64,000 bases of DNA, taken from NCBI GenBank assembly GCA_003024175.1, contig MDYQ01000010.1, positions 165,245 to 229,244 on the forward strand, given 5' to 3'. The notes under the pieces are model-generated. The model worked only from the letters and a program-made list of their open reading frames with translations, did not search any database and was not told the origin of the DNA. Source of the stretch: Planoprotostelium fungivorum (lineage: Eukaryota; Evosea; Variosea; Cavosteliida; Cavosteliaceae). Position 1 is the first letter of the stretch. Each line of letters begins with the position of its first letter. The translations under genes were made by a program, and so were the position numbers. Shown here in pieces: positions 14,679 to 64,000 of the stretch.

Positions 14679-17600
14679 TTACTTGGTTTCGTTGGCCGTC
14701 GTCTGCGTAGTCTGCTGTTGTTCGTTCATGTTCACTATTGCCTGTTGTACCATCGCTTCTCTGTCCTTGCTGGTCAACCTTCCTCTTCCCGCTCCCTGCT
14801 GAAATCCCTTTCCTCCGTCTGCTGGTGTGGGTTGTCTGCTTCTGTTCAGAACATACGTCCAACTGTCATAGAGATACACACCTCAGCAAGAAAACGTCGG
14901 GAGAACCGGAACCGGGAGGTCTCTGCACTCTGGCTCTGCTCTTGGGAGTGAAAGCCTCACTGCTGCTCCTGAGGCCACCGCTGGATCGGAGCCCCGTGGT
15001 CTGGGGAGAATGGACGGGGAGGCCGTTGAGGGAGGTACCGAGACCGGGAGAATTCCTCGCGTTGAGTTGGATGCCTGGGCTGCTGAAGGAGATGCCCTGA
15101 CCAGACTTACGGATGCCCTGAGCCGACAGAGTCTTCGTTCTGGGGTTGACTACGGTGTGGAATTCCACTTGGTCTCCGGGGTTGAGAGAGACACCGCCTC
15201 CCACCTCACTCTGGTGGAAGAAGATCTCCTCTTGAGATGCCGCCAACTTGATGAATCCAAAGTTCTCCTTGGTTGCAGCCACGACACCCATCTCAGTGTG
15301 GGGGACAATGTTTGTGGCTCTCAGGTTCTTTGTTCTGGGGTCTTCAACGATGTTGAAAGAGACACGGTCACCCTTTCGGAGGGTGTATCTCTGATCAACA
15401 TCTTCTCCGTTGAAATCAATGAGATCGGGTGCCTCCTCGGTACCTTCCGTTTTGTACGAGATCTTTCCTCCGTATCCTTCCCTTCCCCTTCCTCTCAGCT
15501 CTCTGTCCACTGTTCCCGTGTGCTTTCCTTCGAGGACCTTCACCTGACACCGTCAGATCTTCCTCCTCTCTCTCCTCTCACCGGAAACTTTACGGAGCCC
15601 TTGGACAATGGCTTGATGCGGATGGCGAGGAGCTTCTTGAACCATGAATTCTTCACGACGGAGAACTCGAGCTCCATGCCGGGTGTGATGGCGTCTGGGT
15701 TAGCCACCTCAGAGAAGTGGAAGTAAACCTCCTCGTCTCGATCGGTACACTTGATGAAACCGAAAGAGTTCTTCACGGAGGAAACAACTCCGACTTCACG
15801 GGGGAGTTGGGTGGGGGTCACCAGCTCGACGTTCACGGCCGATCGGGTCTTGGTTCTCTTGTCTGTCGCCACGTTGAATCCAACGATATCTCCGGGCCAC
15901 AAGGCCAGCTGAAGAATCGCATCAGAACACTATCACAAAGAGAGAGAGAGAAAAGTACAACAATGAGAGAGATAGGAGAAACGTATGACAAAGAGAGATG
16001 AGAGAGAAGAGAATTTTCACCTTGGTGTCCTTCACATCATTGCAACCAAAGGTGACGGTCTCGTTCTTCTTTCCACTGGGGGTGTTGATCTCGTACTCGA
16101 TCATTCCGAGATCGGAAGGTTGTCTCTTTCCAGTGTAACCAGTCTGTCCGGGCTTGCACTCTCGGATGACAATTCCCTGCAGTCTAGAGTCGCTGACGTC
16201 CTCAAACTTTACAGTTCCCGCGTTGAGCAGGTGGATGTGTGCCGCCTTCTTCTTTCCGGTCCTCGAATCGGGCACGATGATGAACTGTACCTCCATTCCA
16301 GGGTGGATGTCCTTCTCTCCCGTGGTCAGAGATTCCAACAAGTTGTTGTCCTGCCCTCATCAATTTCTCTCCCCTCTCTCCTTCTCACCTCGAAATCGGT
16401 AAAGTGGAAGAACAAGTCTTCGTCTTGTTCGGCACACGTGATGTGACCGTAGTTCTTCTTGACGGAGCAGACGACACCCATCTCTACCTTCTCAGTCACT
16501 GCAGTGACAAGGGTGATGTCACTGGCGTGCTTCCTTCCGTTCCTCTTGTCAATGAGAACGGTGCACTCTATCTCGTCTCCGTATCGGAGGAAAGGGAAGA
16601 CTCTGCCCATGTTGGTGTGGTTTCGAATGTCCTGGAGACCAAAGAGGAGGGAATCCGTACCCTCGGGGGTGTTGAATGTGATGACACCCTTGTCTTCGTC
16701 CTCTCTTCGTGTGAAGGGAGAGGCACCGAGTGGGGTGGGGAAATTGGGTGACAACTCCCTCTGTACGGTTCCACGGACTCTCTCTTCGTGCTGAACGGTG
16801 AAGGAGACGGTTCCCTTGGGAAGTCCTCTCACACGTACGGCGCAAAGTTTTCCGGCCCTCTCATCGTTGGCGACGGTGTACTCGACTTCTACACCCTTGC
16901 TGATCTCCTGGCCCCTCTGGAGCAGGACGACGTCTCTAAAGTGGAAGTAGAGGGATCGGGGGGAGTCGCAGCATCGGATGAAACCGAAACCGTCCTGCAT
17001 CTCTCGTCAACGTACGATCTCACATGTGACTCGTTGTAGACGAACGAGAGTAGAGGGAAAGGGAATAGATAGAGTACATACCTTGACGGAATGGATGACA
17101 CCGGTCTGTCTGTCACCACCGAATCGCATGAGGACGACGTGAGCGGCACACTTTCCCTTCAATCTCCTGTTGTAGACGATATCAAACTCCACTTCATCCT
17201 CGGGGGCGAGGGGGACTCTGGGCTCGTCGAGATCCATGGGACCAAAGCGTAACTGCTCCACCGTGTCTTCCGTGGTACGGTACGCCACGACACCGAAATC
17301 GTTCTCGTCACTGTGCTCTGAGATTTCTCTGAGGATGATACCCCTGACCTTCTCTTGGATCGTCTCAGTGAAGACGACAGAGCCCTTGGGCAGGAGGGAC
17401 AAGTTGACTGCAGAGAGTTTGTTCGTGCGTGTGTCGTTGACGACGTGGAAGGAGACCTCGTTGCCCACACGGATGGAAGTGATGAAGGCGTGGAGTTCCT
17501 CTGAGTTGAGGGGCTGGGGGGGAATGAGGGAGGTGCAGTGGAAGAAGATATCTTCCTCTCGATCGACGCAGCGGACGAAACCGTAGTTGTCTTTGAGGAG

Positions 17601-18384
17601 GCAGATGACACCGAGTTCTAATGGGACAGTGGCATCGACGGGAACGGGGATGGGGTGGACGCCCGAAGCTCGGAGGGAGGTGCCCGTCATGATGCCGGTG
17701 TTGCTGCTGCGGAGACCACCGGAGGAAGAGGTGAGGGGGTGACCGGTGGCGAGGGGGGAGCCGATGGCACCGGGGGGCAGAAGGCCGGTGTGAGATTGGG
17801 ACAGACCACTGCGGGGGACGTGGATGGCGGGAGAGCTGTTGAGAGAGCCAGAGTTGAGACCGTAGCGGGGAGCGTCACCGCGAATGTCTGCGTATGGGCC
17901 GGTGGGATTGTAGGGTGCATTACCGAAAGAGCTGTTGGGTGGAAATCCTCCCTGTCTGTTGGTCTCGGATCAGTCTTTCGTCCGTCCATCGTGCAGATAA
18001 ATAGAAAGATGTGAGAAAACTAACCCGTTTGGATTGAAAGTGGCAACACTGGGGAAACTGCGCGTGAGTGCGCCTCTGGACTGAGATTGAGCAGCTCTGA
18101 GGGACATGTTAGACAGACCCTGAGGAAGATTCTCCCAAGGCTTAGAGCCGAGGGGAGCGGATGATCCGGCTGTTAAAGCTGGGGCGATGGAGCCCGTGAT
18201 TTCTCCTCCTCTACCTCCTTCCCAGCCCGGTGGAGCACTGCTGCTCACTAGGTTCTGCTGGCCCTCATAAGAAGGGACTCCTTGCTGCTATTCAACGCAT
18301 TCAGTACTCGTTCCACAGTGCAACTTTGATTCAGAAACACAAGATTTCAAGAAATACGGTTACCTCAGATGGATTCGACGACAT
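14679..18384 (-). CDS. CSDE1: CSDE1/UNR, multi-cold-shock-domain RNA-binding protein (left copy)
   Basis: The ATG at 18384 (MSSNPSE) splices to a Gly/Ser/Pro-rich N-terminus. Nine cold-shock units then alternate between canonical and non-canonical types. The five canonical units are NYGFVRC...DIFFH, DGFGFIRC...LYFHF, NYGHITC...LFFHF, SFGFIKC...VYFHF and NFGFIKL...IFFHQ. The four non-canonical units open RGIILREISE, RGTVQRELSP, QGIVIRECKP and TGTVDRELRG. This 5+4 alternation is exactly that of animal UNR. The C-terminus has SUZ-C-like RQPTPADGGKGFQQGAGRGR and a Gln/Thr tail ending at 14679. UNR binds purine-rich RNA and couples mRNA translation and decay in the cytosol. Introns are short; one lies at about 17001-17090. 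Only the part above about 16076 can be compared with the right-arm copy. Confidence 0.92.
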
Positions 18385-18783
18385 TAGTGTTGTTTGTTTC
18401 TTCGCCGTTCGTTCACTTACGTTGAGGTTATTGATGTGTTGTGCGCTTCGGTTATGTTCACGCGATGTGGCAGAGCGTCGTTCCGCCTTTTCTTTTCCCC
18501 TTTAAGAACCGAGTGTTCTAGAAGAATCACTTCGAAGGGTGTTTCCTGTGGACAACTACCGTTGACTCTTTGGTTGTCTCCTCGTGGAGGATGAGAATGC
18601 TCCCCAACAGACCAGTTCTCCGTTTGTGAAACAATGTAGACACCCGTGCTCTCTTTACAAACGTCTTGTCCACTTTTTCCGATTTGTGTATACTTACTCG
18701 CAAGGAGTGTACCGCTGGGCTCTACACAACAGACAAGAGTTGATCGATATATCTACTCTTTTTATAAAATATATAAGATATAT
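18385..18783. promoter_or_regulatory. gap between EF-hand gene 3' end and CSDE1 start (left arm)
   Basis: A 399-bp stretch upstream of CSDE1 on the minus strand. No gene is seen. An AT-rich block near 18750-18785 (TATAAAATATATAAG) lies at the EF-hand stop and may carry its poly(A) signals. Confidence 0.4.
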
Positions 18784-19633
18784 TCAGAATAACGTTTTCA
18801 GGTTCGGGTCTCGGCTGAAGGCAGTTACAATTTCGTCTCGTGTGAGTTTCCCATCATCATTCGAGTCCACAATCCTATCTCAAGTGAGAACAACACTCAC
18901 GACGCTTGCCTCTCACCCGAAAATCTTTCTTACAGATTCTTCCACCGTCTTCCTCTGGTTCGGTCCACCCTTCCCGTCTGCCTTTGATTTGGCGAGTGAA
19001 AACCTGAGCAACTCTTCGTGTGTAATGGCTCCGTCTCCATCTTCGTCGTACACTGATATACATACTATCGATCGTCAGTGATGAATGGCTCTGAGCGTCA
19101 TTGAGCACTCACGGTGAGCAAACTGCTCTGCACTCTTTGGCAGGATGAGGACCAAGACGAATTCAGCGAACTCCATCAGGCCGTTACCATCCTTGTCCAT
19201 CATGCGGAACATGTTCCTTGCATCTTGTTCTTTGCCTAACGATTCAATTAATACTCCAGTGGCTCAGAGTGAACATGGTACAAAGCGTGAACACCCTTAA
19301 CATCACGAGAACAGCTCGTGGTTCATCATCACGCGCATAGTCCAACGATGATTCTTATAATCACCTATTGGGATATTGCTCTGCCTTACAAAGCGCACAA
19401 ACTCATTGATGGTGAGTCTTCCCGTCGGTGTGATGCCGTCCCACACCGTCTTCCTGATATCCAATCATTTGGCAATCGAGAGGCCGACATTAGGCCGTTT
19501 GGCTCGAGAGTCTCGGCACGATTGGGACTCACCAATACTTGATGTCTTTATCTGGTACGTCTCTCCCTGAATATTTCTTGATGGTATTGATATCGTCGTG
19601 AGAGACGTTGCCAGTTGAGGCACCGCAGCCCAT
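18784..19633 (-). CDS. N-myristoylated EF-hand calcium sensor, calcineurin B/NCS type (left copy)
   Basis: The ATG at 19633 gives MGCGAS, a fit to the N-myristoylation rule MGxxxS with a nearby cysteine for palmitate, so membrane attachment is likely. Four EF-hands follow. The first is degenerate (WDGITPTGRLTINEF); the other three have full loops DKDGNGLMEFAE, DEDGDGAITHEE and DSNDDGKLTRDE. The protein ends AFSRDPNLKTLF. An intron splits the W codon before KTVWDG. Size (about 185 residues) and layout suit a calcineurin B or neuronal-calcium-sensor relative; I cannot separate the two. It is divergent from WRAP53 with 129 bp between starts, so a shared promoter is likely. Confidence 0.85.
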
Positions 19634-19762
19634 GAACGAGCACCGTTCCGAGTGCTAAAAATAAAATCTCAGATTAGGAAAGAGGAAATTGCATTTATTT
19701 ACAACCCGCCTCCCACGCATATGATGTGATGTGATTGCGAATCAATTGTGAAGCTAGTAGAA

Positions 19763-21265
19763 TGGAGGCTGGTTTCAGTATAGATTTTCCATACTTTTCA
19801 GCACCGATCTTCTTTGGATATGAAGAATATTCGGCTGTAAAACATAACAACTTTCTGAAGCTAGGTCGTTGGTAAACAGACATATGTTGAAACAAAGTTC
19901 TCAAACTCCAACAGGTCCCCTGATGGATTATGTTTCCTGACAAGCAGTGATGACAACATTCTCAGATTGTTTGAACTGTATCCACAAAATTTTGAATGGA
20001 TGACGATACTATTGTGCTTAATTCGATAGAAAAGACCGCAGAGTTTTAGTGGAGAGCAACCAGTGGAAATGAGATCAGTTCTAGTGATGAATGAGGCAGA
20101 AACGATATATGATTTCTGCTGGTACCCTGGCATGAGTTCGACAGGTGAGAGAATCGAAGCTTGATCTTCTCTATCATGACCGACAGGTGAATAGATTCTG
20201 CCACTTGTAAATTTGTAGCATCGAACAGAGATCATCCCGTCCATCTGTGGGACGCTTTCACGGGTAAAATCATCGGCTCTTACGTTGGAAGAAACGAAAT
20301 GGATGAGGTCTCTCTTGTTCGTCATCTGATTTTTTCTCAATCGACTGGATAGGTCATCGCCGCTATATCCACTTCGTTCAATTTGAGGGGAGATAAACTA
20401 TATTGCGGATACAACAATTCGATCAAGGTGTAGTTGGTAGACGGTGAAGAATCTGAATGGAATAGGTATTCGACACGGAGATCGGGGGAAACACTGGAAT
20501 CAATCTCGCAGCCAGAGGAAGGGACAAAAAGAAACAGAGGGTGAGAAGAAAAGATGAGAGATGAGTGACTGTTCAGGGGATGATGTCCACCATCAGCTTT
20601 GCAAACAACAGTCATCTATTTGCAGTCGGTGAGTCTTTGTGTTTGCGCGTGGAAATGAAGGAGGATAGGTTGTTATTCCAATCGAGTCATTCTGTACAGC
20701 GAACAGGCACCGAACGAAATCGCCATGGATTTCGACACCAGTAGTTCAGGAAACGGAGTGACACAAGTGATGAAGGCTATATGACCATCCAACTGATGTC
20801 TCAGGTGTTGTTCTCTCCTGATGGACAGTATCTGTTCGCAGGTTCACGCAGATCCCACGAGATCCTGGGATGGGATCTGAGGTACACAGAGTCACCCCTC
20901 TATCGCTTACCGAGGTTCGTCTTCCTTCTTGTCATCGAATGACCAAGAGAACAGGAAAGTGACCACCAGTCAAAGATACACCTTCGACATCGTGTGTGAC
21001 ACAGAGCGGTGCCTCTTGATCACACCGAGTGAGGGAGAGATACTGGTCTACGATCTCACGCACGATGGCTCCTTACTGACCTCAAATCCATCCGGTGAGT
21101 ACGCCTCTTGATTCAGGCGTTGATGAAGGAACAGGATCCATCAACGGGTGTGCTTATCATCCTCACTCACCTTACCTCGCCACCACACACGGAGAGAGGA
21201 GGGATCCTCAAGTGAGTATGTCTGTCGAGAGAGAGGTGACCATCGTAGATCAATGGAGATGGTGA
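19763..21265 (+). CDS. WRAP53: WRAP53/TCAB1 (WDR79) telomerase and scaRNP WD40 protein (left copy)
   Basis: The ATG at 19763 starts MEAGFSIDFPYFSAPIFFGY. A 43-nt intron joins TYVETKFSNSNRSPDGLCFL to SSDDNILRLFEL (human SADNILRIYNL). Diagnostic segments follow: ETIYDFCWYPGMSS (human ETIYDYCWYSLMSS), NRDHPVHLWDAFTG, GDKLYCGYNNSIKVF, VLFSPDGQYLFAGSRRSHEI then LGWDLRY, and KVTTSQRYTFDIV (human EVTTNQRIYFDL). The C-terminus reads VTIVDQWRW. In animals the protein binds CAB boxes and brings telomerase RNA and scaRNAs to Cajal bodies. At least eight short introns are present. The exact C-terminal exon is less certain than the rest. Confidence 0.9.
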
Positions 21266-22587
21266 GGGGAGCACAACGGTGGGAGGTGAGGGACTCGGGA
21301 GGGTCACAGCTGAATCGCACAGGAATGGATGGATTCTGCGTCTATGCCACACATCACACAGCGATCGCCAATCAAGATGGAATGGAGGCTCAATGAGATA
21401 CACTGTCGTCAATCTATCCATTGATTGAAAAAGCATTCATGCTGGCCTCCTGTGATAAATATTGACGTGGCTTTTGTTGTGCACCCTATGAAATTCGGAT
21501 TGGTGTACGTTTGGAACTGTTACCATATAGTCGCTGTCGTCGATTCTGATGACGATTCGCTCGAAGTGGCAGCGAATTGGTGCATCGTGGCGTTGTCTGT
21601 CGTTGTGATGACACTGACGGAGAATGTCCATTTGGATGGCGCGTACCCTCCTGTTCCTATCACTGACATACACCTCAATGGGTACGAACACCCCGTCACA
21701 ACAGGCGCAATCGGAGCCACCATCTGATTCAACAAACAACAATATTTGCCAATCGATCCTATCCCTTCGAATCAGGTGAGTTGAACCAGCACAACAAATC
21801 TGAATGATGTCTCCATCCACATGACGAGTCTGTTCCAAAGAGAGGACATTTACAATGCAATCAATCGAGAAGCTCACCAGACACAAGATTTGCAACGTGC
21901 CTCTAATACGCAGACATAGGGGTACGTTATATGACTCAGCCCTGAAGATAAGACCTCGAGATCAGCCTACAACAATATCATTGTTCAGCTGAAGGCGAAC
22001 GACAATACTCTGAGGCCTCGCCTACCTCTTTCTAGAGTGTTCTCTCCTATCTTCCGGTTTCACCCTGGAGGCTCCTTCCACATTCACGCAAAATTAATCT
22101 CATGATCAAGCAGGTCTGTCGCTGGAGGAGGACGACACAAAGGAGTCGGCGGTCGCTGCCATACCTGAGCCAGGATGGTGAATCAAAGGTGGCAAAGTCT
22201 AGCCAAAAGTCGGAACGAGTGATATAAACGTTTCGAATTCCATACATCTGTATCATATTAGAATGGTCAAATGAATTGACTGGAATATAAGAGATGTTCC
22301 AAGCAAGAGTGCTGAACGTATTTCGACGTGATCACAGCTGCATCATTGTGTTGGTCTTTTAGAAGGATTGTCGAAAGAATGAGACGAAACATCGCATGAA
22401 GACTGATGAAATGAAGAAATAATGTGAGAGAACATACTTTTTCATCTTCTCCCACAACGTTGTGAGCTCTTTCTTGGAAGAGCTTCGCGGGTAGGAAAAA
22501 AGTGGTTGCGAAATTGTACTGCATATTGAGAATAACACCGAGAACTACAACGGAGTGAGACCTCCCACAAAAACAATCAGATTAGAA
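21266..22587. other. diverged intergenic segment with about 577 bp more than the mirror copy
   Basis: A gap of 1.3 kb with no recognisable gene. Its mirror in the right arm (58066-58810) is shorter. The extra sequence lies about 21685-22262, and what remains on both sides shows scattered mismatches and small indels. An ORF at 21895-21437 (minus) has no homology I recognise. Confidence 0.6.
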
Positions 22588-24507
22588 ATGATCAACCTTC
22601 TGAGATCAGCCCAGAGCATTAATCTCGCTCGCAATACAGTATCGCATGTCAAGACAAATGTCATAAGTCCTGTAAAACAGTCGGCCCTCATCAGGAGTAA
22701 CATCGCTGAAGGTCAAGCCAGAGGCAGCTACGCAACATGGAGTTCTGCATCTAGAGATGAAAAGACAGCTATGATCGCTCCACCCGTCACCTTACAGAAG
22801 GTTCTCGGTGGGTCATCTATCATTCAGATGAAATGCTAATCATTCAATCAGGTCCCTTCAAAAACAAGAAGAGGGCTCTATTTTGGATATTGGGTGCGGT
22901 TGTTGCTGGAACTGGTGTGGCTGTCGCGAAGTCTTGGCAGAAAGGTCTGTTTGGTTGGCTCTTTCCTCATTGATATTCATGTTGTTCAGAGAAATACGAA
23001 GAGGCAAACTCAAAACAAGATGAGGCTTTGTTTCCAGACGAAAGGAAACAACTGATCTATGACACCTGGACTGTAATAGCTTCTAGTGAGTTCAATCATT
23101 TACCAAATCGTTGTTATATCCAATTGGGCCATACAAAGAACATGATTTGATCGAAGTATATCGCTACAGAGCGGTAGACATAGAGGAGACAGATCGATTC
23201 TCATAGCGCAAGAGACTGAATGACACAGCACCAAATGCTTCAGAAGAGATGATCAGAGACAATCGAATCATCGAGTTGTTCGTCGATGGATTCACTGACG
23301 AGCACTTGTGCATCATGGCCCTTTCCGTGTTAGCCGGTGAGTGGAATCACAATGACGGGCGTTCATCGAAGGACAGCTCAGCCCCGATTCAGAGAGAGCA
23401 TCGCCAAGCAGCTGCCATACGATAAGATAGCCGATCGAAGGTTCTCCATGAGCGACGTTGCAGTGGCGGGTCTCCTATCCAACCTCCTCTCTGAGATCTC
23501 TCAAGACCGTGAGTGCAATCGTCTGAGGATTATTCCCTTCACTCTCTGACTCGGACAGCCAAGGCGATTCACTACATGGATGACAAGGGAGTCATCAGCT
23601 TCCTGGGTAACGTCTTGCAGTTGGGTATCCCACCCATCTCTGAGAAGGCAGCCTTGGCCTTGAACAACATCGCGAAACGAAGTGAGGAGATACTCCTTCT
23701 CAAGTCTGAACGAGTTAGCCAATTCGGTGGAGAGTCTATTGGAGTTTATGGATCCCCTGTGTGATTTCGCCGCAACGAAGACACCCGAATCGCATCCCGC
23801 ATTAGAAGTGATCGCTCAGGTGAGGACTCTTTGAAGACTATCATCTCACTACATCTTCAGCTCGTTGAGCAGCGAGACGTCAGCAACAGCAACGCATTCA
23901 AGTCCAAGTTGGACGCTGCCATCAAGCGCCAGAAGTTCTCCGAGGGAGATTTGTCCAAGTTGAAGAAGACCGCAGAGAGGATCAAGAACCAACCGACAGA
24001 GAGGAAAGCACTGTCCCCCTACAAGGTCGCCATGGAGGGAATCGCCAACGGTGCCTTCATCAGTCTCGTCTGGGGCTCTCTGAGATGGACCATCCGTTCA
24101 TGTGAGTCCTCTCGTCTCACTCGTTCTCACTCCATCAGGGAGGAACCAGATACGCACTCGCGGTGAATTGGGCAGAGTGTTGCTGGCAAGAGTGCCTCTC
24201 ACCGTCCTCGGTTCCTCTCTGTTCGCCCTTCCTTTCCTGCTAGAGCATTCTCTCGTAGAGGTGAAGTCCATTCCATCCATCTGGGCTGAGATCCAAACAG
24301 CCAGAGTACCGAGTGGACGGAATCTCCAAGAACGAGCAGAAGAGTATGATCTCGTCAGGTGCTGTGGCAGTGTCCCACGTGGCTACAGCCTACGTGGCCC
24401 TGTCCATAGCCCCATTCTCCCTCGTTCCGGGACTGTTCACTGCTCTCTTCTGGTTGTCTCACAGTGCAGAGCTGGCGAAGAAAGAGAGAAAAGAGAGAGA
24501 GGAATAA
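22588..24507 (+). CDS. mitochondrial-type ARM-like protein with C-terminal membrane helices (left copy)
   Basis: The ATG at 22588 gives a basic, Ser-rich leader (MINLLRSAQSINLARNTVSH) like a mitochondrial targeting sequence. After a 44-nt intron comes a membrane helix (ALFWILGAVVAGTGVAVAK). A helical-repeat region follows (ELFVDGFTDEHLCIMALSVL, DVAVAGLLSNLLSEI, GVISFLGNVLQLGI, ALALNNIAKRSEEI), then a charged linker. Three hydrophobic stretches near the C-terminus (GAFISLVWGS, LTVLGSSLFALPFLL, VALSIAPFSLVPGLFTALFW) end in AELAKKERKEREE. I do not know the family. The ARM-like repeats with terminal membrane helices suggest an inner- or outer-membrane scaffold (inference). It converges on MRPL15 with 16 bp between stops. 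Confidence 0.7.
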
Positions 24508-24523
24508 AAGGTGTCCTTGATGT

Positions 24524-25611
24524 TTATTCCTTCTTTGTGGAGTTGTAATGCTCAATGTCAGCCATCAACTTGAGGTGCTTGGGTGAGGTGAATTGTCCCC
24601 AGTCGTCAAACTTCTCTCTGTCCTGCAATTTGGCTGCTGCTCTCGCAGGTGCCTTCAAAAATTTGTCTGGCTATGACCATTCAGTGATGACCAGATGGGT
24701 GCTACACACGTAGAGTAGATAACGAAGTCCAAGGCGATTGTAGTACATGGTCGTCACGGTGCCTCCCGCCTTCTCTACGGCTTCCCGTGCTGACTGAGAT
24801 ATCGCAGTCACCTACCCAGTTAAGAGACAGTGATACTCTTTCTCTCACCTCCAATCGGATGGGTTGCTTCAGACCTTCAGGTCCTGCGTGATTGATCAAT
24901 CGATGAGAGATTTGAATACTGAAGAGGTTGACGAAAGATTTGAATAGTGAAGAGGTCGATGAATGGTAAAGAATGAAGAACTGAGGATCATACCTTGTCT
25001 GGCGAGAACCTTGAGACCCTCCTTGATGTGAGTGACGCACTTGGTGTCCTTCAGTGTCTTCATGGTGATGGTCTGGTTGGGATCGATGCGGCCACGGTCG
25101 ATCCACTCTTGGATCTTGTTCAAGTTGACATAATCATACTCCTTTTTGAATCTGTCCTCGTCAACATCTGGACTCGATCCAAAAGCTCTCACGTTCCATT
25201 GGAGAAACCGTATTTCCTCATTCTCTTGAAAAGAGGTGTCTGTCCTCCCTCGAAGGAGGCATGAGGCTTACGCGATCCACTTCTGGAGTTCTGACCCTTG
25301 TGTCCTCTTCCACAAGTCTTTCCTTTTCCAGATCCAATACCTCTTCCCACTCGTTTCGAACGATAGTGGCTACCGGGATTGTCAGCCAAATGCTCGATCT
25401 TGAGACGATCTCTGCCTGGATCGTTCTCTATTGGCTTGAATATCACATCGTCTAATGTTGTCCTCGAAGTGGCGATTCCTCTAACAGTTTGAATTCTTGG
25501 AAAGTGAAGAGAAGGGGTCTTCTGTCTAGAGGAGATGTTGACTGAGGCCTTCTTCAATGAGAGAGGTACACTCTTGACTGGTGCAGACACCAGAGACCGC
25601 AGCATCATCAT
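24524..25611 (-). CDS. MRPL15: mitochondrial ribosomal protein uL15m (left copy)
   Basis: The ATG at 25611 begins an arginine/serine-rich mitochondrial leader ([20 protein letters not shown]). The bacterial L15 core follows: [27 protein letters not shown], then [17 protein letters not shown]. Later exons give [42 protein letters not shown] and the tail [19 protein letters not shown]. These are the signatures of uL15, with a eukaryotic C-terminal extension. It is a structural part of the large mitoribosomal subunit. The stop lies 16 bp from the stop of the convergent ARM/TM gene, and the start is 72 bp downstream of the synthase stop on the same strand. Confidence 0.93.
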
Positions 25612-25682
25612 CTCTCGATATGTGTGATCCGCTGATCTGAATAATTTTTTGAATTTATTTTAATGGTCGCTCATTTTATTTC

Positions 25683-26904
<1,222 letters not shown>

Positions 26905-26998
26905 GATGGTTGAGACGTTCTGCTTCTCCTCTCGATAATTGTCACTTGTAGACGGACACGATTGTGCGGTATAACGCTTCGAAAACAAATCATCTGAG
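26905..26998. promoter_or_regulatory. bidirectional promoter ACL5/FAM32A (left arm)
   Basis: Only 94 bp separate two divergent ATG codons, so both promoters and both 5' leaders must share this segment. The mirror copy is 53655-53748. Confidence 0.6.
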
Positions 26999-27466
26999 AT
27001 GAGCGACGCATACGATGTACCAGGAGGAAAGCTGAAGTTGAAGGGAGTCACAAAAAAGTGAGTGAGTATATATAGAGCCTTTCCATCTGATTTGTCAGAA
27101 AAGGGGCGAGCCTCGTAAAGAAAAAGACGCCAACTAAAGAGGAGGTACCAGCGCCAAAGATAGTCCTCCCAGAAGATCCTCGAACTGAATCACAAAAGCG
27201 ATATGATGAGATTCAATCGAAGAGGGTACGGATTTAAGTGCGTGCTTTTTCACTCATCACAAGCAGGAGATGGATCAGATCAAGAAGAAGGCATCCAAAT
27301 CACACAAACAAAAGGTGAGAGAAGAATCATCCTCGAAGATGACCAAGGTATAGGTAGAAGAGTTCAACAAATACCTCGGCTCACTATCTGAGCACCACGA
27401 CATACCCAAGGTGAATCATTTCGATTGTCTACGCTCTCTGAGATACATCAGGTTGGACCAGGATAA
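26999..27466 (+). CDS. FAM32A: FAM32A-like nuclear protein (left copy)
   Basis: Five exons from the ATG at 26999 encode about 98 residues. The N-terminus has the family GGKLKLKGVTKKK motif (human GPLKLKG). A lysine-rich middle follows (VKKKTPTKEEVPAPK), then the hallmark C-terminus KKASKSHKQKVEEFNKYLGS and LSEHHDIPKVGPG (human KASKTHKQRVEDFNRHL and TEHYDIPKVSW). FAM32A is a small protein reported at the spliceosome active site in humans. Every intron is GT-AG and 40-50 nt; the first begins at 27058. The last codons VGPG come from a tiny terminal exon. Confidence 0.9.
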
Positions 27467-27537
27467 GCCAAACATTGTGTTCTGTGCAGTGGAGAGAAAT
27501 GTGATAAACAACAGACGACAGAAGGTGTATGATCATC

Positions 27538-30532
27538 TCATTCGTCGTCACTGTCTGGACCTTCGTCAACTAGATCCGCTTCCTCTCCCTTTGCTGCCTC
27601 CACTTTGTTGTTCTCTCCCGTCTTTTGAGGAGTGGCTGTGGATGCCTTCTGAGGAGTGGCTGTGGATGCCTTCTGAGGAGTCGCTGTCTTCTGAGGAGTC
27701 GCTTTCTGAGGAGTGGTTGTCTTCTGGGTGGATGCCTTCTGAGGAGTAGCTGTCTTCTCTCTCTTTCCTTCCTTCTTTTCAATGGACTGAGGGCTCTGCA
27801 TTCACTTAGCTCCACTCTCGCATTCCCGATCCTCACCTCTCCTGCTTTTCCTCTCTTTTTTGACGGTCCCTCCGGTGTCCCTATCCTTCTCTTCTTGGCA
27901 TTGGTCTCCTCTTCTCTCTTCTCTTCCTTTTCTTCCTTCTCCTCCACTTTCTAGTTCGCTTGTCATCCCATGCCTAATGTCTTCGGTCTCACCTTTTCTC
28001 TTCTAGAGGTGACTGTATAAGGTAGTACCGATGTTGGTGTTGCCTCTACTCTTCTTTCTTCCTTGTCTTCTTCACTCTTCTCCTCTTCTTGATCTTCTAT
28101 GGAAGTGACCTGTAGAGGATGAGGAGATGAAGAAGGATGATTGTGAGTACCTCCATGGGAGCGTAGGACTGGAGATGAGTGGAGGTGGGCTTGAGAGCAG
28201 AGAGAGGAGATGTCTCCAGGTGGAATGGAACAGTGAGCTTGTTGACGATGAGAGGTGGTGCTCTGGGGTGAATGGACAATTCGCAGGTGGACACCGCAGC
28301 GGCACAGAAGAGGGAGATCTGTGGAGCGAGTGAGGGGCGAAGGATGTGATGAGATGACCTGCTGACTGGGATCGTTTCTTCCCTTGCTGAAGATGGCTAA
28401 AGCGTAAGACAAGACGGAAGGCTGATTGGCGACAGGTGAGAGGATGGAAGTCAACAGGCACTTCATCAAAGCGAGTCTGACAGAGGGTGGTATCCTTGTC
28501 TCTTGAGTGGCGATGACACACACGATGAATATGACTCACAGGATGGATGGATCCAGGAGAATGGAACACAGGAGGGTGTCCAGTTCGCACCGAATGGTGT
28601 AGGGGAGTACAGTTCCGGAGTATTGGATGATGTTCATGAATGCTGCGTGGGTCACTTACCATCCACTCCCCTCCTCTCACCTGTGAGAGCAGCGAGGATA
28701 TTCTTCTCCTCACTCTGGTTCATGGTTCTCACTTTTTGGACGTTCTTACTGCCCAACTGCTCCTCGCTCGTCTTCTTTTGTCTCTTCACCTGTTCTTTTC
28801 AGTTCAAATTGTTGATCTTCGGCAGATGTGATGCGATGTAACGATAGATGCTATGCCATATAACGATAGATGCTATGCTGTGCAATTCTTTGCTGTTGTG
28901 ACCCACTTGCATGACGATGGTATTGGAATCTCTTCTGCTAGCTAAGAAAGAGGATAATTGGCCGTAGAGGGATGACAACACTGCAGTCGACACGGAAGAT
29001 GCACCATGGATCCCAAAGAAACTGACAAAATAGCTGCTGCACTTGTAGACTTCCTCTCGCAACGAGGGACTATCCTCTTCAGTGGAGTCCATGGGATCAC
29101 CCTCACCTGGTCTGAGTGTCCTCCAGGCCAGCCAGTAGGAGAGAGGTGATGTCAGAGAGGAAAGGTGACAGAGCTGTTCTGACAGATAGCAAGAGGGAGG
29201 ACAACAGACGGTAAGAGCACGTGTGAACATGTGAGAACAACTTTTCAGTGTCAGACAACATCGAGAGTGCGAAGATCACCATGGTTCGATCCACATCGTC
29301 CAGATCAGTGTCGATCTTCTGAGACACGGTGACGTGATCGTGTTCTGGTGTCAATCCTCTCTTGATCAATCGAACGTAGTCGTGAATGGGAACTTGAACT
29401 TGTAGTTCTTCTCTCTTCTCATCAGCTCCCTTCTCCTTTCAGTGTGATTTCTCCTTATGACTCACCAATAGAACGGATGATAACTTGAGGAGAGAGGAAT
29501 ACTGACTCGCTAAGACGTTGGCATCGTTTCGAACGGATAACAGCGACGATAAGTGCTGGTCATCAGAGATATCTTGGTATCTATGTAGTGTCAACTTGTG
29601 TGGAACAATTGGACAGACAAAAGAGTCTCACGGTTGATCATCCACGCCAGTGTAAATAATACCCAGCAGATAGTGAGAGCCTCGGATCGCTCTGTTGGCA
29701 GTGCGAGTCCACGAACTCTCATTGGTGGAGGCTAACTCTGCCAACGTGATGATGCTCTCTGTCCTCGTCTCTTCAGACTCTGTGAGAATCTATTCATATT
29801 CAGTGTTCTGCAGTGATCGTGTCTTTCTTTACCTGGTTGAATAAAAGGTCCTCGATCTTAGGCAAGAGAGACTTGAATGCATTTGGGTGACATCTCGATG
29901 ATAGCCGAAGTGCTTCCAGTGCTTCAGATCTGCTAGTTAGGATTGATTTCTCCACAACCTTCACTATCATGGGCACTAGTCTGGGCACGTGTAGATTCAG
30001 CATTGCTCTCTTTGTTTCAGCAAAATGACATCCCCTCTCAATTAATTCGGCAGTTGTGAGAGCCAATAAACCTGCAATCATCAACTCTCCCCTTCTCACA
30101 CTTCATACCCGAGGTGATGTCAGCTCTGCCTCTCTGGACTGATATCAGTCGTGATTATGCGATGTAATTAAGCCTCACTTTCAACATGTCGGTGAGTTGT
30201 TTGATCCATGGTTCAAGGTGCTCGCTCAATTGTTGTTGTGTACAACTGGATATACTTTGTCTCCAAAGACATAACCCAGCCCAAACAACCTCCCACTGAA
30301 GTGTTGAGATGGAGATGAGAAGCGATCACACCTTTTTGTCTTTGGCCAAAGAAGAGACCTTTGTCAGCCATTGATTGCATTGCTTCTGTTCCGCACGATC
30401 GCCGGTAGAGAGAGCTCTCGTCAAAAGTTCATCTTGAGAGAGAACCGTGAGAACGTAATCTAATCTATCTAGGGGGTTGTCTATTCCCTCTGCGAAGAGG
30501 TCCTTCTTGATCAGCTCTGTCAGGGTGTTCAT
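27538..30532 (-). CDS. RIX1/PELP1-like helical repeat protein with charged TPQK tail (left copy)
   Basis: The ATG at 30532 starts MNTLTELIKKDLFAEGIDN. A RIX1-like helical solenoid follows: WEVVWAGLCLWRQSI, HLEPWIKQLTDML, LNLHVPRLVPMIVKVVEKS, SEALEALRLSSRCHPNAFKS, LLPKIEDLLFNQ, DRTMVIFALSMLSDTEKLF. These fit the RIX1/PELP1 pattern (alternating helices, a CHP.AF..LLPKIE..L segment), the large-subunit pre-ribosome and SUMO-linked complex. The C-terminal third is low complexity: Lys/Glu runs, then ATPQK repeats, then the acidic end VDEGPDSDDE. The assignment rests on pattern and layout, not a diagnostic motif; another nuclear HEAT protein is possible. It has many short introns. Confidence 0.6.
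27615..27780 (-). repeat. ATPQK/STATPQKA coding repeat (left copy)
   Basis: About seven TPQK units sit in the RIX1-like tail, some as 24-bp direct repeats encoding STATPQKA. TPxK motifs are typical of nuclear DNA-contacting tails and CDK-type phosphosites. The mirror copy is about 52873-53038. Confidence 0.75.
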
Positions 30533-30842
30533 CTTGTTCGATTCTCAAACCTCGAATCTGGAGACTACAACGAGGAGGGAGATGAGGATTCGTAGGTGAG
30601 ATGGTTCCAAGAATGAGGGCTCTTCCATTTCGTCGAAAGGAAACCTTTTCGGATCAACAGATCGCCCCTCATTTCTGCGAATCTTCCTCCACATCTTCCG
30701 AGGAAATCGCAGTGGTATCTGCATCACATTGTCGCAGTTGCTCTCTGCGAATTCGTAATTGCTCAGCGATGGGAGGCATTTTCAAACATCAACGATACCT
30801 TCAACCCCAACTTGTGAATAGAAACCAATACAACATAAAAAA
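30533..30842. promoter_or_regulatory. divergent gap RIX1-like/BTG with a 36-codon ORF (left arm)
   Basis: A 310-bp interval between divergent starts. On the minus strand an ATG at 30779 opens MPPIAEQLRIRREQLRQCD, 36 codons ending at 30669. It may be an upstream ORF or an unrecognised first exon of the RIX1-like gene, since it is helical and charged. Confidence 0.35.
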
Positions 30843-31442
30843 ATGCCAGAAGCCACGAGAGAATGCGAAGTTGCGAGCTGCTGGTGGACGAGTCAGCTGG
30901 ATACTGGCGTGGCTCCACCACTCACTGAGGACCAACTCTCGAAGTTCCAAATGGCTCTTCAATCAATACTGGAACAGCGCTACGATAATCACTGGTGAGC
31001 CGAGCCCACCTTTCTCCACCATAAGGAAATCTCGTTGAACCATGTCTTAACCTTTTGAAAGGTACCCAATAGACCCAGAGAGAGGCACAGCTTACCGCTC
31101 CATTAGCTCAGAGGGGCGAAGCATGGACCAAGTGAGTTATAAAACTGAGCGAGATAATAGACTCACAATAGAAAGGTTATCACACAAGCCGCTCGTCTTT
31201 CTGGTATTCCAAACATTACGGGGCGTCTTAAAGTTCAGTGCATCATGTGGGTGGACCCCTCCTCAGTGAAGGTTGCCTTCTCGCATGCAAAGAAGCCCAA
31301 CATCATTTGGCAGAGAAATGAAGAGGGAGTAGAGCAACTCACATGGCGTCACACAGGAAACTCTGCACACATCAACCAAAGACTAGTCAACTCGAATTTG
31401 ACACGGGAGAGTCTGTTGGAAGTGCAGGAGATTGTATCATGA
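30843..31442 (+). CDS. BTG/Tob domain protein (left copy)
   Basis: From the ATG at 30843, three exons give about 165 residues. Box A is present as LEQRYDNHWYPIDPERGTAY followed by RSI (human BTG: [20 protein letters not shown]). Box B is GRLKVQCIMWVDPSSVKVAF (human LSVWIDPFEVSYQI). The helix TEDQLSKFQMALQSILE precedes box A. The C-terminus is a divergent tail (HINQRLVNSNLTRESLLEVQ). BTG/Tob proteins bind the CAF1 (CNOT7/8) deadenylase and speed mRNA turnover. The W-Y-P and W-D/V-DP residues used for that contact are kept. It converges on BolA with 50 bp between stops. Confidence 0.87.
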
Positions 31443-31492
31443 GATAAAGAGAGTATTGTACCATACTGAGCGTAGTCCTTTTTTGCGCCAAT

Positions 31493-31748
31493 TTATTTGG
31501 GTGCCTTCGTCGTCAGTGTGAGAGCGTGCATGTTCTTTAGCTCCTCTGATAAAAGTTCGTTAACCATTCTATGTTGCTCTACTAATCTCTTTCCTGCGAA
31601 GAGAGGTGACTCTACTTCTACACGAAACGAAGCACCACAACCACCTGATATGAACCTCAATCACACCACTTCACGATCTACGGGCACCTGATACATCTTG
31701 CACTATGACTTTTTCTGTGTTGAGTGAGGTCTTCAGTAGCTCAGACAT
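31493..31748 (-). CDS. BOLA2: BolA-family protein, BOLA2 type (left copy)
   Basis: Two exons: MSELLKTSLNTEKVIVQDVSG, then GCGASFRVEVESPLFAGKRL, VEQHRMVNELLSEELKNMHA and LTLTTKAPK. The C-x-S-F-R-V strand, the F.GK.L.E/QHR.VN helix-turn motif and the invariant HA before LT.T are BolA signatures. The conserved H in EQHR and the Cys of GCG are the [2Fe-2S]-glutaredoxin ligand candidates. Length (about 70 residues) matches cytosolic BOLA2; no mitochondrial leader is visible. Monothiol glutaredoxins are the known partners. Confidence 0.9.
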
Positions 31749-37755: not shown

Positions 37756-37815
37756 ATAGTAAAAGGGAATATTATATTCCATTTCTCTACAACTCTCCTT
37801 GCACTGAATGCTGAC

Positions 37816-47100: not shown

Positions 47101-48514
47101 GGAGAGCATTGGCATTCTTTTGCAGCATTAAGATCCCTAAGATGTTCACGCAGTGGAGGAATGTAACCAGGGATATCGTAGAGCAGAACAGAAAGATGGA
47201 GCAAATGAGAGAACGATGGAGATTGATTCACCTCTCTCACTGGATGAATATCTGGCATCAACGAGTGCAACAGACGAGACTTGCTTCGCAGAACGAAGAG
47301 AGAGCAATTGCTTTCTACTATCAAATCCTTAAAAAAATTAGCCTTAAAGTGATGTATATGACGATCGATTGACACTCATCCACCGCAGAGATGGATTCAC
47401 CAGCTGTCTCAGTTAAGAGAACATAAGTATCGTGAACAAAAGGCAATCATTCATTACGAGAAGAAAGAAACAGAGAAAGCGTGGCTGATGCTGAAGAAGT
47501 GGAAATTACAAATAGACCAGGACAACGAGAAGGCTGATAGGGTGAGAGAGCCAATCATCCGTTCGATGACATATGAAGATGCTGTGTAAGCGGACCTTAT
47601 TCTGTTGGATCTCTGTGTATGAACGTTGCATCCAGACAAGAATCAAGATCGAAGGGTGGGTAGAGTGCGAAACATCCCTTATGAAGATCTAGGTTGTTAG
47701 CCATCGTACATCATAGGAAATTGTGCGAGGCATTCCAACAGTGGATGAGATACAGAAGAGAAGCAGCGGAAGGGAGACGGAGGAACAACGAAGCAATGCA
47801 CAGAAGAAACAGAGAGGCCATGAGACTCAAGTTGTGTAGATGGAAATTGTATTGCGCCATCAGAATTTCGGAGCGCCGTACTCTGTCCATGGCATTATCG
47901 GCCTGGAGGCACGCCCTGCAAGTGCAACTATGGGAAGACAAGAGAATGAGGGATAGAGCCTCCGACATCCTTCTACTGTGGAACCACCTCGCTCTACAGA
48001 GGAAAGCGCTCAGACTCTCATGCTTCCAGGTGTGTATGAACAATACGAACGGCATTGATGGATCGAAGAGGTGGAGAGAATTCATAGCCTCGAGGAGAGA
48101 TGAGTACCAGAGGATGGTACACATCACCCAGTACATGGATGCACAGAAGAAGAGCAGAATACTTGAAGCCTGGAGACTGCACGTCAGCTCTGCGACAGCA
48201 CTGAGAAGGGCTATGTCCTTTAAGTCCCAGAAGCCAGTTGACAAAGGGTGAATAGTTCGTCACACTCGCTCCTCTGAGCTATCTCAGAGGAAAGAGCCAT
48301 TCGAGTGCACATCAACCACCGAACGAACGATCACAACCCAAGATCTCACTTATTCGGGGAGCAGTACACGACAGGTGAGCCTCTCAGTGTTCTATTGACG
48401 AACATGCACAGAGATAACGATGATATACTGTCTCATCTCGCGACCCATCACTACCTAAAGAGGCTAACAAAAACCACTTTTTCTCGTTGGCATACCTGTA
48501 CCGAAGTGAAATGA
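41148..48514 (+). CDS. coiled-coil/Sfi1-like centrin-binding repeat protein spanning spacer and right arm
   Basis: Tentative start MMIQTII at 41148. Short introns with consistent phase join charged coiled-coil exons (RRRDDLEKIRQFNAKERERA, REQKQKEAEERRITEAL, EKAVGQFRDFLRKQRIERAD), a proline-containing linker, a second coiled coil (NRLSHEEMRLLESLKQLELA) and the piece NGIIYIDPKFESLALEDGTL, which crosses into the arm at 42887. The Sfi1-type W repeats described for the left copy follow, ending CTEVK at 48514. At about 42949 the sequence reads CTCTAACATGG where the left copy has CTCTACATGG; the extra base puts a stop in frame straight after CSNAL. So the only copy with its 5' exons has a frameshift, unless it is a base-call error. 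Sfi1-like proteins scaffold centrin at centrioles and basal bodies. Confidence 0.7.
48270..48291. repeat. 9-bp stem hairpin in last Sfi1-like intron (right copy)
   Basis: TCCTCTGAG and its complement CTCAGAGGA flank a 4-nt loop inside the short intron before the last exon. The mirror copy is 32353-32374. Confidence 0.8.
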
Positions 48515-48904
48515 ACAAGTTTGGAATGTATCATTGATAAGAAACAGAAGCATCGAGCATTTTCACCACGAGAGGATCAGAGAGCACCCCGAGAGCAGAG
48601 GGATAAAGTGAGGCCATCGGGGGGATTGAAATTCCTAACAAATGAAATCAGAGAGTGCAGACGAGCATCATCATCAATCCAATCACTGGGAAACTGATAC
48701 GGGGAGGGGCTGAGAAGGCCTATAGGAATAAAAAGATTTAATCTTGAAGAAAACGGTTCATGTGATCAAATCATGTTCCGCATCTCTCGTGGGGTCACCC
48801 TCCTGCAACATAGGCCCAGATTAGGTATACCGCTGTGATCTTCAGAGTCTAACGTGTATCCAGCCCTTCGAAACTATGGCCAAATTATAGACAGAGAGCA
48901 ACGA
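48515..48904. other. diverged intergenic patch Sfi1-like/BolA (right arm)
   Basis: A gap of 390 bp without a gene; the counterpart of the left diverged patch. It differs by roughly one base in ten by eye, with several small indels. Confidence 0.6.
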
Positions 48905-53748: not shown

Positions 53749-54970
<1,222 letters not shown>

Positions 54971-56129: not shown

Positions 56130-56145
56130 ACATCAAGGACACCTT

Positions 56146-58065: not shown

Positions 58066-58810
58066 TTCTAATCTGATTGTTTTTGTGGGAGGTCTCACTC
58101 CGTTGTAGTTCTTGGTTATTCTCACAATTTCAGGCCACTTTTTTCCCATCCGTGAAGCTCTTCCAAGAAAGATCTACGTTGGGAGAAGATGAAAAATTAT
58201 GTTCTTCGTTTCATCAGTCATGATGCGATGTTTCGTCTCATTCTTTCGGCAATCCTTCTGAAAGATCAACACAATGATGCAGCAGTGATCACGTCGAAAT
58301 ACGTTCAGTACTCTTGCTTGGAACATCTGTTCCATTCCAGTCGATTCATTTGACCATTCTATTACGATATTCGTACCCATTGAGATGTATGTCAGTGATA
58401 GGAACAGGAGGATACGCGCCATCCAAAGGGACATTCTCCGTCAGTGTCATCACAACGACAGACAACGCTATGATGCTCCAAGTCGCTGCCACTTCGAGCG
58501 AATCGTCATCAGAATCGATGACAGCGACTATATGGTAACAGTTTAAACGTACACCAATCGGAATTTCATAGAGTGCACAACAAAAGCCACGTCAATATTT
58601 ATCACAGGAGGCCAGCGTGAATGCTTTTTCAATCAATGGATAGAGTTGACGACAATGCATAGAGTTGACGACAATGCATCTCATTGAGCCTCCATTCCAT
58701 CTTGATTGGTGATCGCTGTGTGATGTGTGGCATAGACGCAGAATCCATCCATTCCTGTGCGACTCAGCTGTGAACCTTCGAGTCCCTCACCTCCCACCGT
58801 TGTGCTCCCC
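58066..58810. other. diverged intergenic patch (right arm)
   Basis: A 745-bp gap with no gene. Relative to the left arm it has point differences, lacks about 577 bp net near 58375-58380, and has a 20-bp local duplication (GAGTTGACGACAATGCATA) at about 58640-58680. Confidence 0.65.
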
Positions 58811-60313
58811 TCATCATCTCCATTGATCTACGATGGTCACCTCTCTTTCGACAGACATACTCACTTGAGGATCCCTCCTCTCTCCGTGTGTGGTGGCGAG
58901 GTAAGGTGAGTGAGGATGATAAGCACACCCGTTGATGGATCCTGTTCCTTCATCAACGCCTGAATCAAGAGGCGTACTCACCGGATGGATTTGAGGTCAG
59001 TAAGGAGCCATCGTGCGTGAGATCGTAGACCAGTATCTCTCCCTCACTCGGTGTGATCAAGAGGCACCGCTCTGTGTCACACACGATGTCGAAGGTGTAT
59101 CTTTGACTGGTGGTCACTTTCCTGTTCTCTTGGTCATTCGATGACAAGAAGGAAGACGAACCTCGGTAAGCGATAGAGGGGTGACTCTGTGTACCTCAGA
59201 TCCCATCCCAGGATCTCGTGGGATCTGCGTGAACCTGCGAACAGATACTGTCCATCAGGAGAGAACAACACCTGAGACATCAGTTGGATGGTCATATAGC
59301 CTTCATCACTTGTGTCACTCCGTTTCCTGAACTACTGGTGTCGAAATCCATGGCGATTTCGTTCGGTGCCTGTTCGCTGTACAGAATGACTCGATTGGAA
59401 TAACAACCTATCCTCCTTCATTTCCACGCGCAAACACAAAGACTCACCGACTGCAAATAGATGACTGTTGTTTGCAAAGCTGATGGTGGACATCATCCCC
59501 TGAACAGTCACTCATCTCTCATCTTTTCTTCTCACCCTCTGTTTCTTTTTGTCCCTTCCTCTGGCTGCGAGATTGATTCCAGTGTTTCCCCCGATCTCCG
59601 TGTCGAATACCTATTCCATTCAGATTCTTCACCGTCTACCAACTACACCTTGATCGAATTGTTGTATCCGCAATATAGTTTATCTCCCCTCAAATTGAAC
59701 GAAGTGGATATAGCGGCGATGACCTATCCAGTCGATTGAGAAAAAATCAGATGACGAACAAGAGAGACCTCATCCATTTCGTTTCTTCCAACGTAAGAGC
59801 CGATGATTTTACCCGTGAAAGCGTCCCACAGATGGACGGGATGATCTCTGTTCGATGCTACAAATTTACAAGTGGCAGAATCTATTCACCTGTCGGTCAT
59901 GATAGAGAAGATCAAGCTTCGATTCTCTCACCTGTCGAACTCATGCCAGGGTACCAGCAGAAATCATATATCGTTTCTGCCTCATTCATCACTAGAACTG
60001 ATCTCATTTCCACTGGTTGCTCTCCACTAAAACTCTGCGGTCTTTTCTATCGAATTAAGCACAATAGTATCGTCATCCATTCAAAATTTTGTGGATACAG
60101 TTCAAACAATCTGAGAATGTTGTCATCACTGCTTGTCAGGAAACATAATCCATCAGGGGACCTGTTGGAGTTTGAGAACTTTGTTTCAACATATGTCTGT
60201 TTACCAACGACCTAGCTTCAGAAAGTTGTTATGTTTTACAGCCGAATATTCTTCATATCCAAAGAAGATCGGTGCTGAAAAGTATGGAAAATCTATACTG
60301 AAACCAGCCTCCA
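58811..60313 (-). CDS. WRAP53: WRAP53/TCAB1 WD40 protein (right copy)
   Basis: Inverse duplicate of 19763-21265. The signature blocks ETIYDFCWYPGMSS, HPVHLWDAFTG and VTTSQRYTFDIV are unchanged. Only sequence after the last coding exon (below 58,810) diverges from the left copy. Confidence 0.9.
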
Positions 60314-60442
60314 TTCTACTAGCTTCACAATTGATTCGCAATCACATCACATCATATGCGTGGGAGGCGGGTTGTAAATAAATGCAATTTCCTCTTTCCT
60401 AATCTGAGATTTTATTTTTAGCACTCGGAACGGTGCTCGTTC

Positions 60443-61691: not shown

Positions 61692-64000
61692 ATGTCGTCG
61701 AATCCATCTGAGGTAACCGTATTTCTTGAAATCTTGTGTTTCTGAATCAAAGTTGCACTGTGGAACGAGTACTGAATGCGTTGAATAGCAGCAAGGAGTC
61801 CCTTCTTATGAGGGCCAGCAGAACCTAGTGAGCAGCAGTGCTCCACCGGGCTGGGAAGGAGGTAGAGGAGGAGAAATCACGGGCTCCATCGCCCCAGCTT
61901 TAACAGCCGGATCATCCGCTCCCCTCGGCTCTAAGCCTTGGGAGAATCTTCCTCAGGGTCTGTCTAACATGTCCCTCAGAGCTGCTCAATCTCAGTCCAG
62001 AGGCGCACTCACGCGCAGTTTCCCCAGTGTTGCCACTTTCAATCCAAACGGGTTAGTTTTCTCACATCTTTCTATTTATCTGCACGATGGACGGACGAAA
62101 GACTGATCCGAGACCAACAGACAGGGAGGATTTCCACCCAACAGCTCTTTCGGTAATGCACCCTACAATCCCACCGGCCCATACGCAGACATTCGCGGTG
62201 ACGCTCCCCGCTACGGTCTCAACTCTGGCTCTCTCAACAGCTCTCCCGCCATCCACGTCCCCCGCAGTGGTCTGTCCCAATCTCACACCGGCCTTCTGCC
62301 CCCCGGTGCCATCGGCTCCCCCCTCGCCACCGGTCACCCCCTCACCTCTTCCTCCGGTGGTCTCCGCAGCAGCAACACCGGCATCATGACGGGCACCTCC
62401 CTCCGAGCTTCGGGCGTCCACCCCATCCCCGTTCCCGTCGATGCCACTGTCCCATTAGAACTCGGTGTCATCTGCCTCCTCAAAGACAACTACGGTTTCG
62501 TCCGCTGCGTCGATCGAGAGGAAGATATCTTCTTCCACTGCACCTCCCTCATTCCCCCCCAGCCCCTCAACTCAGAGGAACTCCACGCCTTCATCACTTC
62601 CATCCGTGTGGGCAACGAGGTCTCCTTCCACGTCGTCAACGACACACGCACGAACAAACTCTCTGCAGTCAACTTGTCCCTCCTGCCCAAGGGCTCTGTC
62701 GTCTTCACTGAGACGATCCAAGAGAAGGTCAGGGGTATCATCCTCAGAGAAATCTCAGAGCACAGTGACGAGAACGATTTCGGTGTCGTGGCGTACCGTA
62801 CCACGGAAGACACGGTGGAGCAGTTACGCTTTGGTCCCATGGATCTCGACGAGCCCAGAGTCCCCCTCGCCCCCGAGGATGAAGTGGAGTTTGATATCGT
62901 CTACAACAGGAGATTGAAGGGAAAGTGTGCCGCTCACGTCGTCCTCATGCGATTCGGTGGTGACAGACAGACCGGTGTCATCCATTCCGTCAAGGTATGT
63001 ACTCTATCTATTCCCTTTCCCTCTACTCTCGTTCGTCTACAACGAGTCACATGTGAGATCGTACGTTGACGAGAGATGCAGGACGGTTTCGGTTTCATCC
63101 GATGCTGCGACTCCCCCCGATCCCTCTACTTCCACTTTAGAGACGTCGTCCTGCTCCAGAGGGGCCAGGAGATCAGCAAGGGTGTAGAAGTCGAGTACAC
63201 CGTCGCCAACGATGAGAGGGCCGGAAAACTTTGCGCCGTACGTGTGAGAGGACTTCCCAAGGGAACCGTCTCCTTCACCGTTCAGCACGAAGAGAGAGTC
63301 CGTGGAACCGTACAGAGGGAGTTGTCACCCAATTTCCCCACCCCACTCGGTGCCTCTCCCTTCACACGAAGAGAGGACGAAGACAAGGGTGTCATCACAT
63401 TCAACACCCCCGAGGGTACGGATTCCCTCCTCTTTGGTCTCCAGGACATTCGAAACCACACCAACATGGGCAGAGTCTTCCCTTTCCTCCGATACGGAGA
63501 CGAGATAGAGTGCACCGTTCTCATTGACAAGAGGAACGGAAGGAAGCACGCCAGTGACATCACCCTTGTCACTGCAGTGACTGAGAAGGTAGAGATGGGT
63601 GTCGTCTGCTCCGTCAAGAAGAACTACGGTCACATCACGTGTGCCGAACAAGACGAAGACTTGTTCTTCCACTTTACCGATTTCGAGGTGAGAAGGAGAG
63701 AGGGGAGAGAAATTGATGAGGGCAGGACAACAACTTGTTGGAATCTCTGACCACGGGAGAGAAGGACATCCACCCTGGAATGGAGGTACAGTTCATCATC
63801 GTGCCCGATTCGAGGACCGGAAAGAAGAAGGCGGCACACATCCACCTGCTCAACGCGGGAACTGTAAAGTTTGAGGACGTCAGCGACTCTAGACTGCAGG
63901 GAATTGTCATCCGAGAGTGCAAGCCCGGACAGACTGGTTACACTGGAAAGAGACAACCTTCCGATCTCGGAATGATCGAGTACGAGATCAACACCCCCAG
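61692..64000 (+). CDS. CSDE1: CSDE1/UNR multi-cold-shock-domain protein (right copy, cut by window end)
   Basis: The ATG at 61692 gives MSSNPSE, followed by a 90-95-nt intron to QQGVPSYEGQQNLVSS. The first five cold-shock units and part of the sixth (RLQGIVIRECKPGQTG) are visible; the window stops inside it. Sequence matches the left copy throughout. Confidence 0.92.

Follow-up and report, generated by a model that had tools for sequence, protein, structure and literature searches.

The last 64,000 bases of contig MDYQ01000010.1 (hereafter C30; positions 165245–229244) in the Planoprotostelium fungivorum assembly, which comprises 36,859,091 bases in 471 contigs, contain a very large inverted repeat that carries genes on both arms. 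This raises the question of whether a chromosome of this organism carries a palindrome or whether the assembly has folded two versions of one locus onto each other. Our analysis suggests that two versions of one locus were probably joined head to head in C30, as an assembly-level inverted join, at a repeated element with terminal inverted repeats (TIRs). Below, positions without a contig name are counted from the first base of this 64,000-base stretch (the window).

An inverted repeat that runs to the end of C30

We compared the window with itself using BLAST and found one inverted pair, formed by a left arm at positions 16076–37752 (forward strand, 21,677 bases) and a right arm at positions 42891–64000 (reverse strand, 21,110 bases) on either side of a spacer of 5138 bases; no further self-match was obtained in the window at E ≤ 1e-20. 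The pair was recovered as two segments (16076–21688/58370–64000 at 99.25% and 22251–37752/42891–58369 at 99.45% identity). The inverted repeat is real as assembled sequence, and the initial annotation, which had described arms of more than 21 kb around a spacer of about 5.1 kb, was borne out by this comparison. It had also treated position 64000 as the outer limit of the palindrome; however, this base is the last of the 229,244 bases of C30, so that the right arm has no outer boundary and its stop is set solely by the contig end. Unique flanks bounding both arms on one chromosome were accordingly not found, the right flank being absent from the assembly.

The arms are a mosaic of identity and divergence. 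Three exact tracts, checked base by base, lie at positions 16076–21228 (5153 bases), 22541–31792 (9252 bases) and 32246–37636 (5391 bases) of the left arm. All 76 differences between the arms, comprising 62 substitutions (41 transitions and 21 transversions) and 14 insertions or deletions (indels), are confined to three patches, and none occurs in the remaining 19,796 aligned bases. Patch 1 (positions 21229–22540 of the forward strand, partner 58113–58847) has 43 substitutions in 715 aligned bases (6.0%) and 10 indels. Patch 2 (31793–32245, forward strand, partner 48399–48860) has 16 substitutions in 453 aligned bases (3.5%) and three 3-base indels, and patch 3 (37637–37752, forward strand, partner 42891–43007), which adjoins the repeated element of the spacer, has 3 substitutions in 116 aligned bases (2.6%) and 1 indel. 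Random placement of 76 differences (10,000 draws) gave a longest identical run with a median of 1334 and a maximum of 3481 bases, compared with the 9252 bases observed; when 66 differences were placed instead, the median was 1482 and the maximum 5304 bases. Judged from the sequence, this mosaic of 0% and 2.6–6% divergence is what one would see between alleles that have lost heterozygosity in places, and it is equally compatible with a palindrome whose arms have undergone gene conversion in places; it does not fit an amplification hairpin or read error.

Two observations concern the patches themselves. The 562-base indel of patch 1 (21689–22250) is present in the left arm only, and parts of it match short repeats elsewhere. 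Coding constraint on patch 2, considered on account of its 3-base indels, was dropped because a 1-kb stretch there contains stops in all six frames.

The initial annotation had advised a search for a second locus holding the same genes in single copy. Such a locus was not found with the arm pieces searched against the genome: positions 25189–27189 and 35000–37740 each occur exactly twice, both times in C30, and positions 20500–23000 gave the two places in C30 and short repeat matches elsewhere. We also compared the window with the adjoining 50 kb on its left side in C30 and with segments taken from four small contigs; no further match of at least 120 bases was obtained at E ≤ 1e-10.

The element and the single-copy stretch at the centre

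From left to right, the locus consists of the left arm, the repeated element, 1.8 kb present once, and the right arm in inverted orientation. The element (positions 37752–41081, forward strand), delimited by genome matches and by comparison of its TIRs, contains nested repeats and makes up most of the spacer; its TIRs (37752–37794 and 41039–41081) are 84% complementary. Among the matches listed, we counted by hand 39 places outside C30 that match the left end of the element, 23 of which start exactly at position 37752, and 39 further places that match the right end. Because the bases upstream of position 37752 vary between copies, this position is the terminus of the element, and the homology of the arms stops exactly there, at 37751/37752. 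Long pieces of the nested repeats are 88–93% like copies in C260, C308, C37, C369 and C318.

Within the element, positions 37816–37885 form a near-perfect hairpin (33-base arms, 94% complementary, with a 4-base loop) at the edge of a nested repeat, and its sequence recurs beside the nested copies in C260, C308 and C37. Positions 39672–39870 hold a repeat of approximately 195 bases with more than 20 further copies across the genome, 92–96% alike.

The five-base flanks of the element, gcgtg and taaaa, do not match. We compared them with four other pairs of element ends, chosen by hand on the assumption that each pair is one element, and with the stretches carrying single or unpaired ends set aside (seven, among them C142, C417 twice, C470 and C440); matching flanks were found in only one of the four pairs (C377, and not C95, C245 or C236). 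The unmatched flanks in the window are therefore not diagnostic, and the missing target duplication is weak evidence. The copy in C377 (positions 1756–5138 of that contig) is flanked by TAAGT at both ends and is possibly an intact insertion, which would fix the length of the target duplication.

Between the element and the right arm lies the single-copy stretch (positions 41082–42890, forward strand), which was delimited by genome search and open reading frames (ORFs) and is joined to the right arm only. The ORFs suggest a coiled-coil gene with its 5΄ part in this stretch and its continuation in the right arm.

A probable head-to-head join and its rivals

Contig numbering in this assembly follows falling size, with outliers. 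Among ranks 21–41, 15 of 21 contigs measure 90.9–99.7 kb and six, including C30, measure 144–253 kb (a scripted count gave five outliers, as C21 starts its envelope). In ranks 300–342, 32 of 42 contigs lie on the size trend and 10 lie far above it; C337 (120,844 bases), left out of this count, would be the eleventh outlier of 43. It is probable that the contigs were named by size and that some were joined later, and because its 229 kb breaks the size order, C30 was probably joined after the primary assembly.

We further examined three small contigs of the 471 (C260, C339 and C318) for alternative versions of loci found in other contigs. C260 starts inside C179 (42,393 bases), to which it is 100% identical (rounded) for 5856 bases, apart from small differences within the final 60; beyond this point the two sequences diverge. 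C339 starts inside C297 (32,954 bases), with 532 bases at 100% identity followed by collinear pieces at 88–96%. Alternative versions with identical overhangs were thus retained in two of the three cases. The assembly seems to contain alternative versions of loci of this kind, which the right arm of C30 resembles in sequence, and the terminal 5153 bases of C30 resemble the identical overhangs of C260 and C339. In addition, the 46 contig ends compared included one pair, from C315 and C318, with an exact overlap of 55 bases, of the kind left by graph assemblers.

Under a head-to-head join, the two versions would represent either the alleles of a nucleus that is not haploid or variants coexisting in the culture. 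Version one would be the left arm, ending in the element, and version two would be an alternative contig of approximately 23 kb (positions 41082–64000) made up of the single-copy stretch and the right arm, whose own inner end would also have run into such an element. A false join would be in keeping with the extension of the fold-back to the contig end, where the arm stops apparently inside a gene, and with exact identity beside patches of 2.6–6%, which fits alleles that have lost heterozygosity in patches. Falsely joined contigs of haplotypes or alternative versions occur in draft assemblies of non-haploid genomes. The present locus resembles such joins in its position at a contig end, its clustered allele-like differences, its kilobases of identical overhang and the repeated element at the join; it differs in the 1.8-kb stretch present once, and in that a false join would here be read from the assembled sequence. 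Overall, the structure is more suggestive of a head-to-head join at a mobile element than of an established palindrome. The initial annotation had leaned toward a genuine palindrome, with a misassembly of haplotypes as the main rival; given the contig end, the outlying size and joined appearance of C30, the alternative-version contigs and the transposon-like breakpoint, this leaning is not supported and the rival has become the reading that we favor.

Several points weigh against this explanation. Two full haplotypes should leave two copies of positions 41082–42890 or a collapse elsewhere, whereas this stretch is single copy. Among the matches listed, none was identical to the spacer element (long pieces were 88–93% alike), so that confusion with another copy of the element is not obvious. 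An assembly that places an exact tract of 9252 bases twice should also cross 3.3 kb. The size order is evidence that contigs were joined, but it does not show the joins to be false. Further copies of the cluster shared by C339 and C297 lie in C345 and, inverted, within C297 itself, and because the cluster is multi-copy, C339 may be a paralogue. C318 is not a clear alternative version because it starts in repeats (its first 394 bases are 99% like the end of C163, and C58 is 94% like its first 723 bases), whereas the remainder of the 6000 bases tested is single copy. Finally, no second version was found of the sequence to the left of the arm, for either positions 1–9000 or positions 10001–16075, the latter having only short repeat matches elsewhere.

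As an observation on the C339 cluster itself, the segments C297:16636–29947, C345:11968–16142 and C339:1–6000 contain direct and inverted copies that are mostly 79–96% alike.

It is possible, though rather unlikely, that at least one chromosome carries a genuine inverted duplication whose asymmetric centre is occupied by a transposon. Such a duplication could have arisen by alternative or one-ended transposition, in which the end of an element lying 1.8 kb beyond the arm joined a new target at position 37752 on the sister chromatid or the homologue, or by recombination between two oppositely oriented copies of the element; arms derived from two homologues would explain the diverged patches. 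The coincidence of the homology breakpoint with the element terminus, the restriction of the single-copy stretch to one side and the absence of any N in the window are consistent with such an event, and different five-base flanks are expected if the two ends of the element have different histories. The sister-chromatid type of alternative transposition of maize Ac/Ds is described as yielding flanking inverted duplications as well as elements that lack matching target duplications (PMC3744419). The present locus is similar to that description in having an inverted duplication bounded by a transposon end and unmatched element flanks, but its arms are patchily diverged, and the element is known here from its repeats, not from a family, a transposase or a target duplication. 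However, given that three of the four comparison pairs also lack matching flanks, this feature does not discriminate; moreover, the partner junction expected from an element moving out of an intact site has no exact copy (14 places match with 1–2 mismatches), the outer boundary is missing, and a false join at two element copies gives an identical anatomy. Slightly less likely still is a specific form of this event, namely a fairly recent one in which the end of the TIR transposon joined a new target on the homologue, duplicating at least 21 kb in inverted orientation, with arms that are now being homogenized by conversion.

Large duplications, one of them inverted and some with repeats near the breakpoint, are described in laboratory stocks of Dictyostelium (PMC2643946). 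C30 is comparable in presenting a large duplication in a protist with a repeat at the breakpoint; the Dictyostelium duplications, as described there, are based on copy number from microarrays and on a finished genome, whereas the present, putative one is known from a draft assembly.

An old chromosomal palindrome, in which gene conversion keeps the arms alike and the patches are unconverted tracts, appears improbable. It would account for 19,796 exact bases beside patches of 2.6–6%, one of which adjoins the spacer, where conversion would be limited, and the human Y palindrome P6, for which inferred conversion tracts reach at least 9023 bases, offers a precedent for long tracts (PMC3723533). 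The GC content of the arms (0.478) also exceeds that of the spacer (0.426), although the spacer is mostly repeated element. C30 shares with P6 large, mostly identical arms around a non-duplicated spacer; however, the P6 arms, supported by read depth, are given as approximately 0.02% diverged throughout (PMC3723533), unlike the patches between perfect tracts found here, which are known from the assembly alone. The lack of an outer boundary and of a relative for comparison also counts against an old palindrome, and alleles predict all of its signs equally.

It is highly improbable that the contig end has taken in a long read with a hairpin or missed adapter, or a chimera produced by DNA amplification: the fold-back does sit at a contig end, but such products lack a 5-kb asymmetric spacer and clustered allele-like differences. 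These two features largely rule out a hairpin read, in agreement with the initial annotation, which had judged that a simple one did not fit. A palindrome at a chromosome tip is likewise unsupported, as inspection by eye of the window's final 300 bases revealed no repeat resembling a telomere. Elsewhere in the assembly, C305:1–130 begins with CCCTAAA repeats, and chromosome ends probably carry TTTAGGG-type telomeres.

Genes of the arms and significance of the locus

The outer end of the left arm is crossed by ORFs with cold-shock domains detected by Pfam (positions 14869–17969, reverse strand), which may represent a CSDE1-like gene. Cold-shock domains occur on both sides of position 16076 in this copy, and the ORF that crosses this position matched CSDE1 only below the threshold. 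The initial annotation had described a complete set of duplicated genes; this did not hold, as the right-arm copy of the cold-shock-domain gene is apparently cut by the contig end at position 64000, and a coiled-coil/Sfi1-like gene of the left arm, read from ORFs rather than a gene model, appears to be cut at the end of the element.

Among 40 distinct ORF pieces scanned (unspliced, some of them outside the arms), no member of the WRAP53 or BolA families was found, a negative that does not refute these names, or the count of about ten genes, in the initial annotation. Pfam matches above the cut-off were to cold-shock domains and an L15-type ribosomal protein (PF00828), and those below it to RIX1 and BTG. 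Ten further ORFs, one from the arm and nine that overlap or adjoin the spacer or patch 1, were assigned no family by Pfam, and Rfam gave no match in the window.

To the left of the arms, positions 9216–10394 hold a long ORF in which charged stretches occur together with short repeats rich in glycine, tyrosine and arginine; a weak NUDIX match, below the threshold, follows at positions 10566–11030. Positions 1–9000 have no near-identical copy; within them, positions 1–3783 contain ORFs that look leucine-rich-repeat-like by eye, and the DNA of this segment has relatives on C173 (83%) and C40 (69%).

If the join is false, the assembly doubles the genes at the end of C30, and the final 23 kb of this contig represent an alternative version of one locus; caution would then be due in this assembly with contigs out of size order and with small contigs that repeat the interiors of others. 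If the duplication is real, C30 would offer a clear natural example, from a unicellular eukaryote, of a large palindrome that was seeded by a transposon end and whose arms are midway through homogenization.

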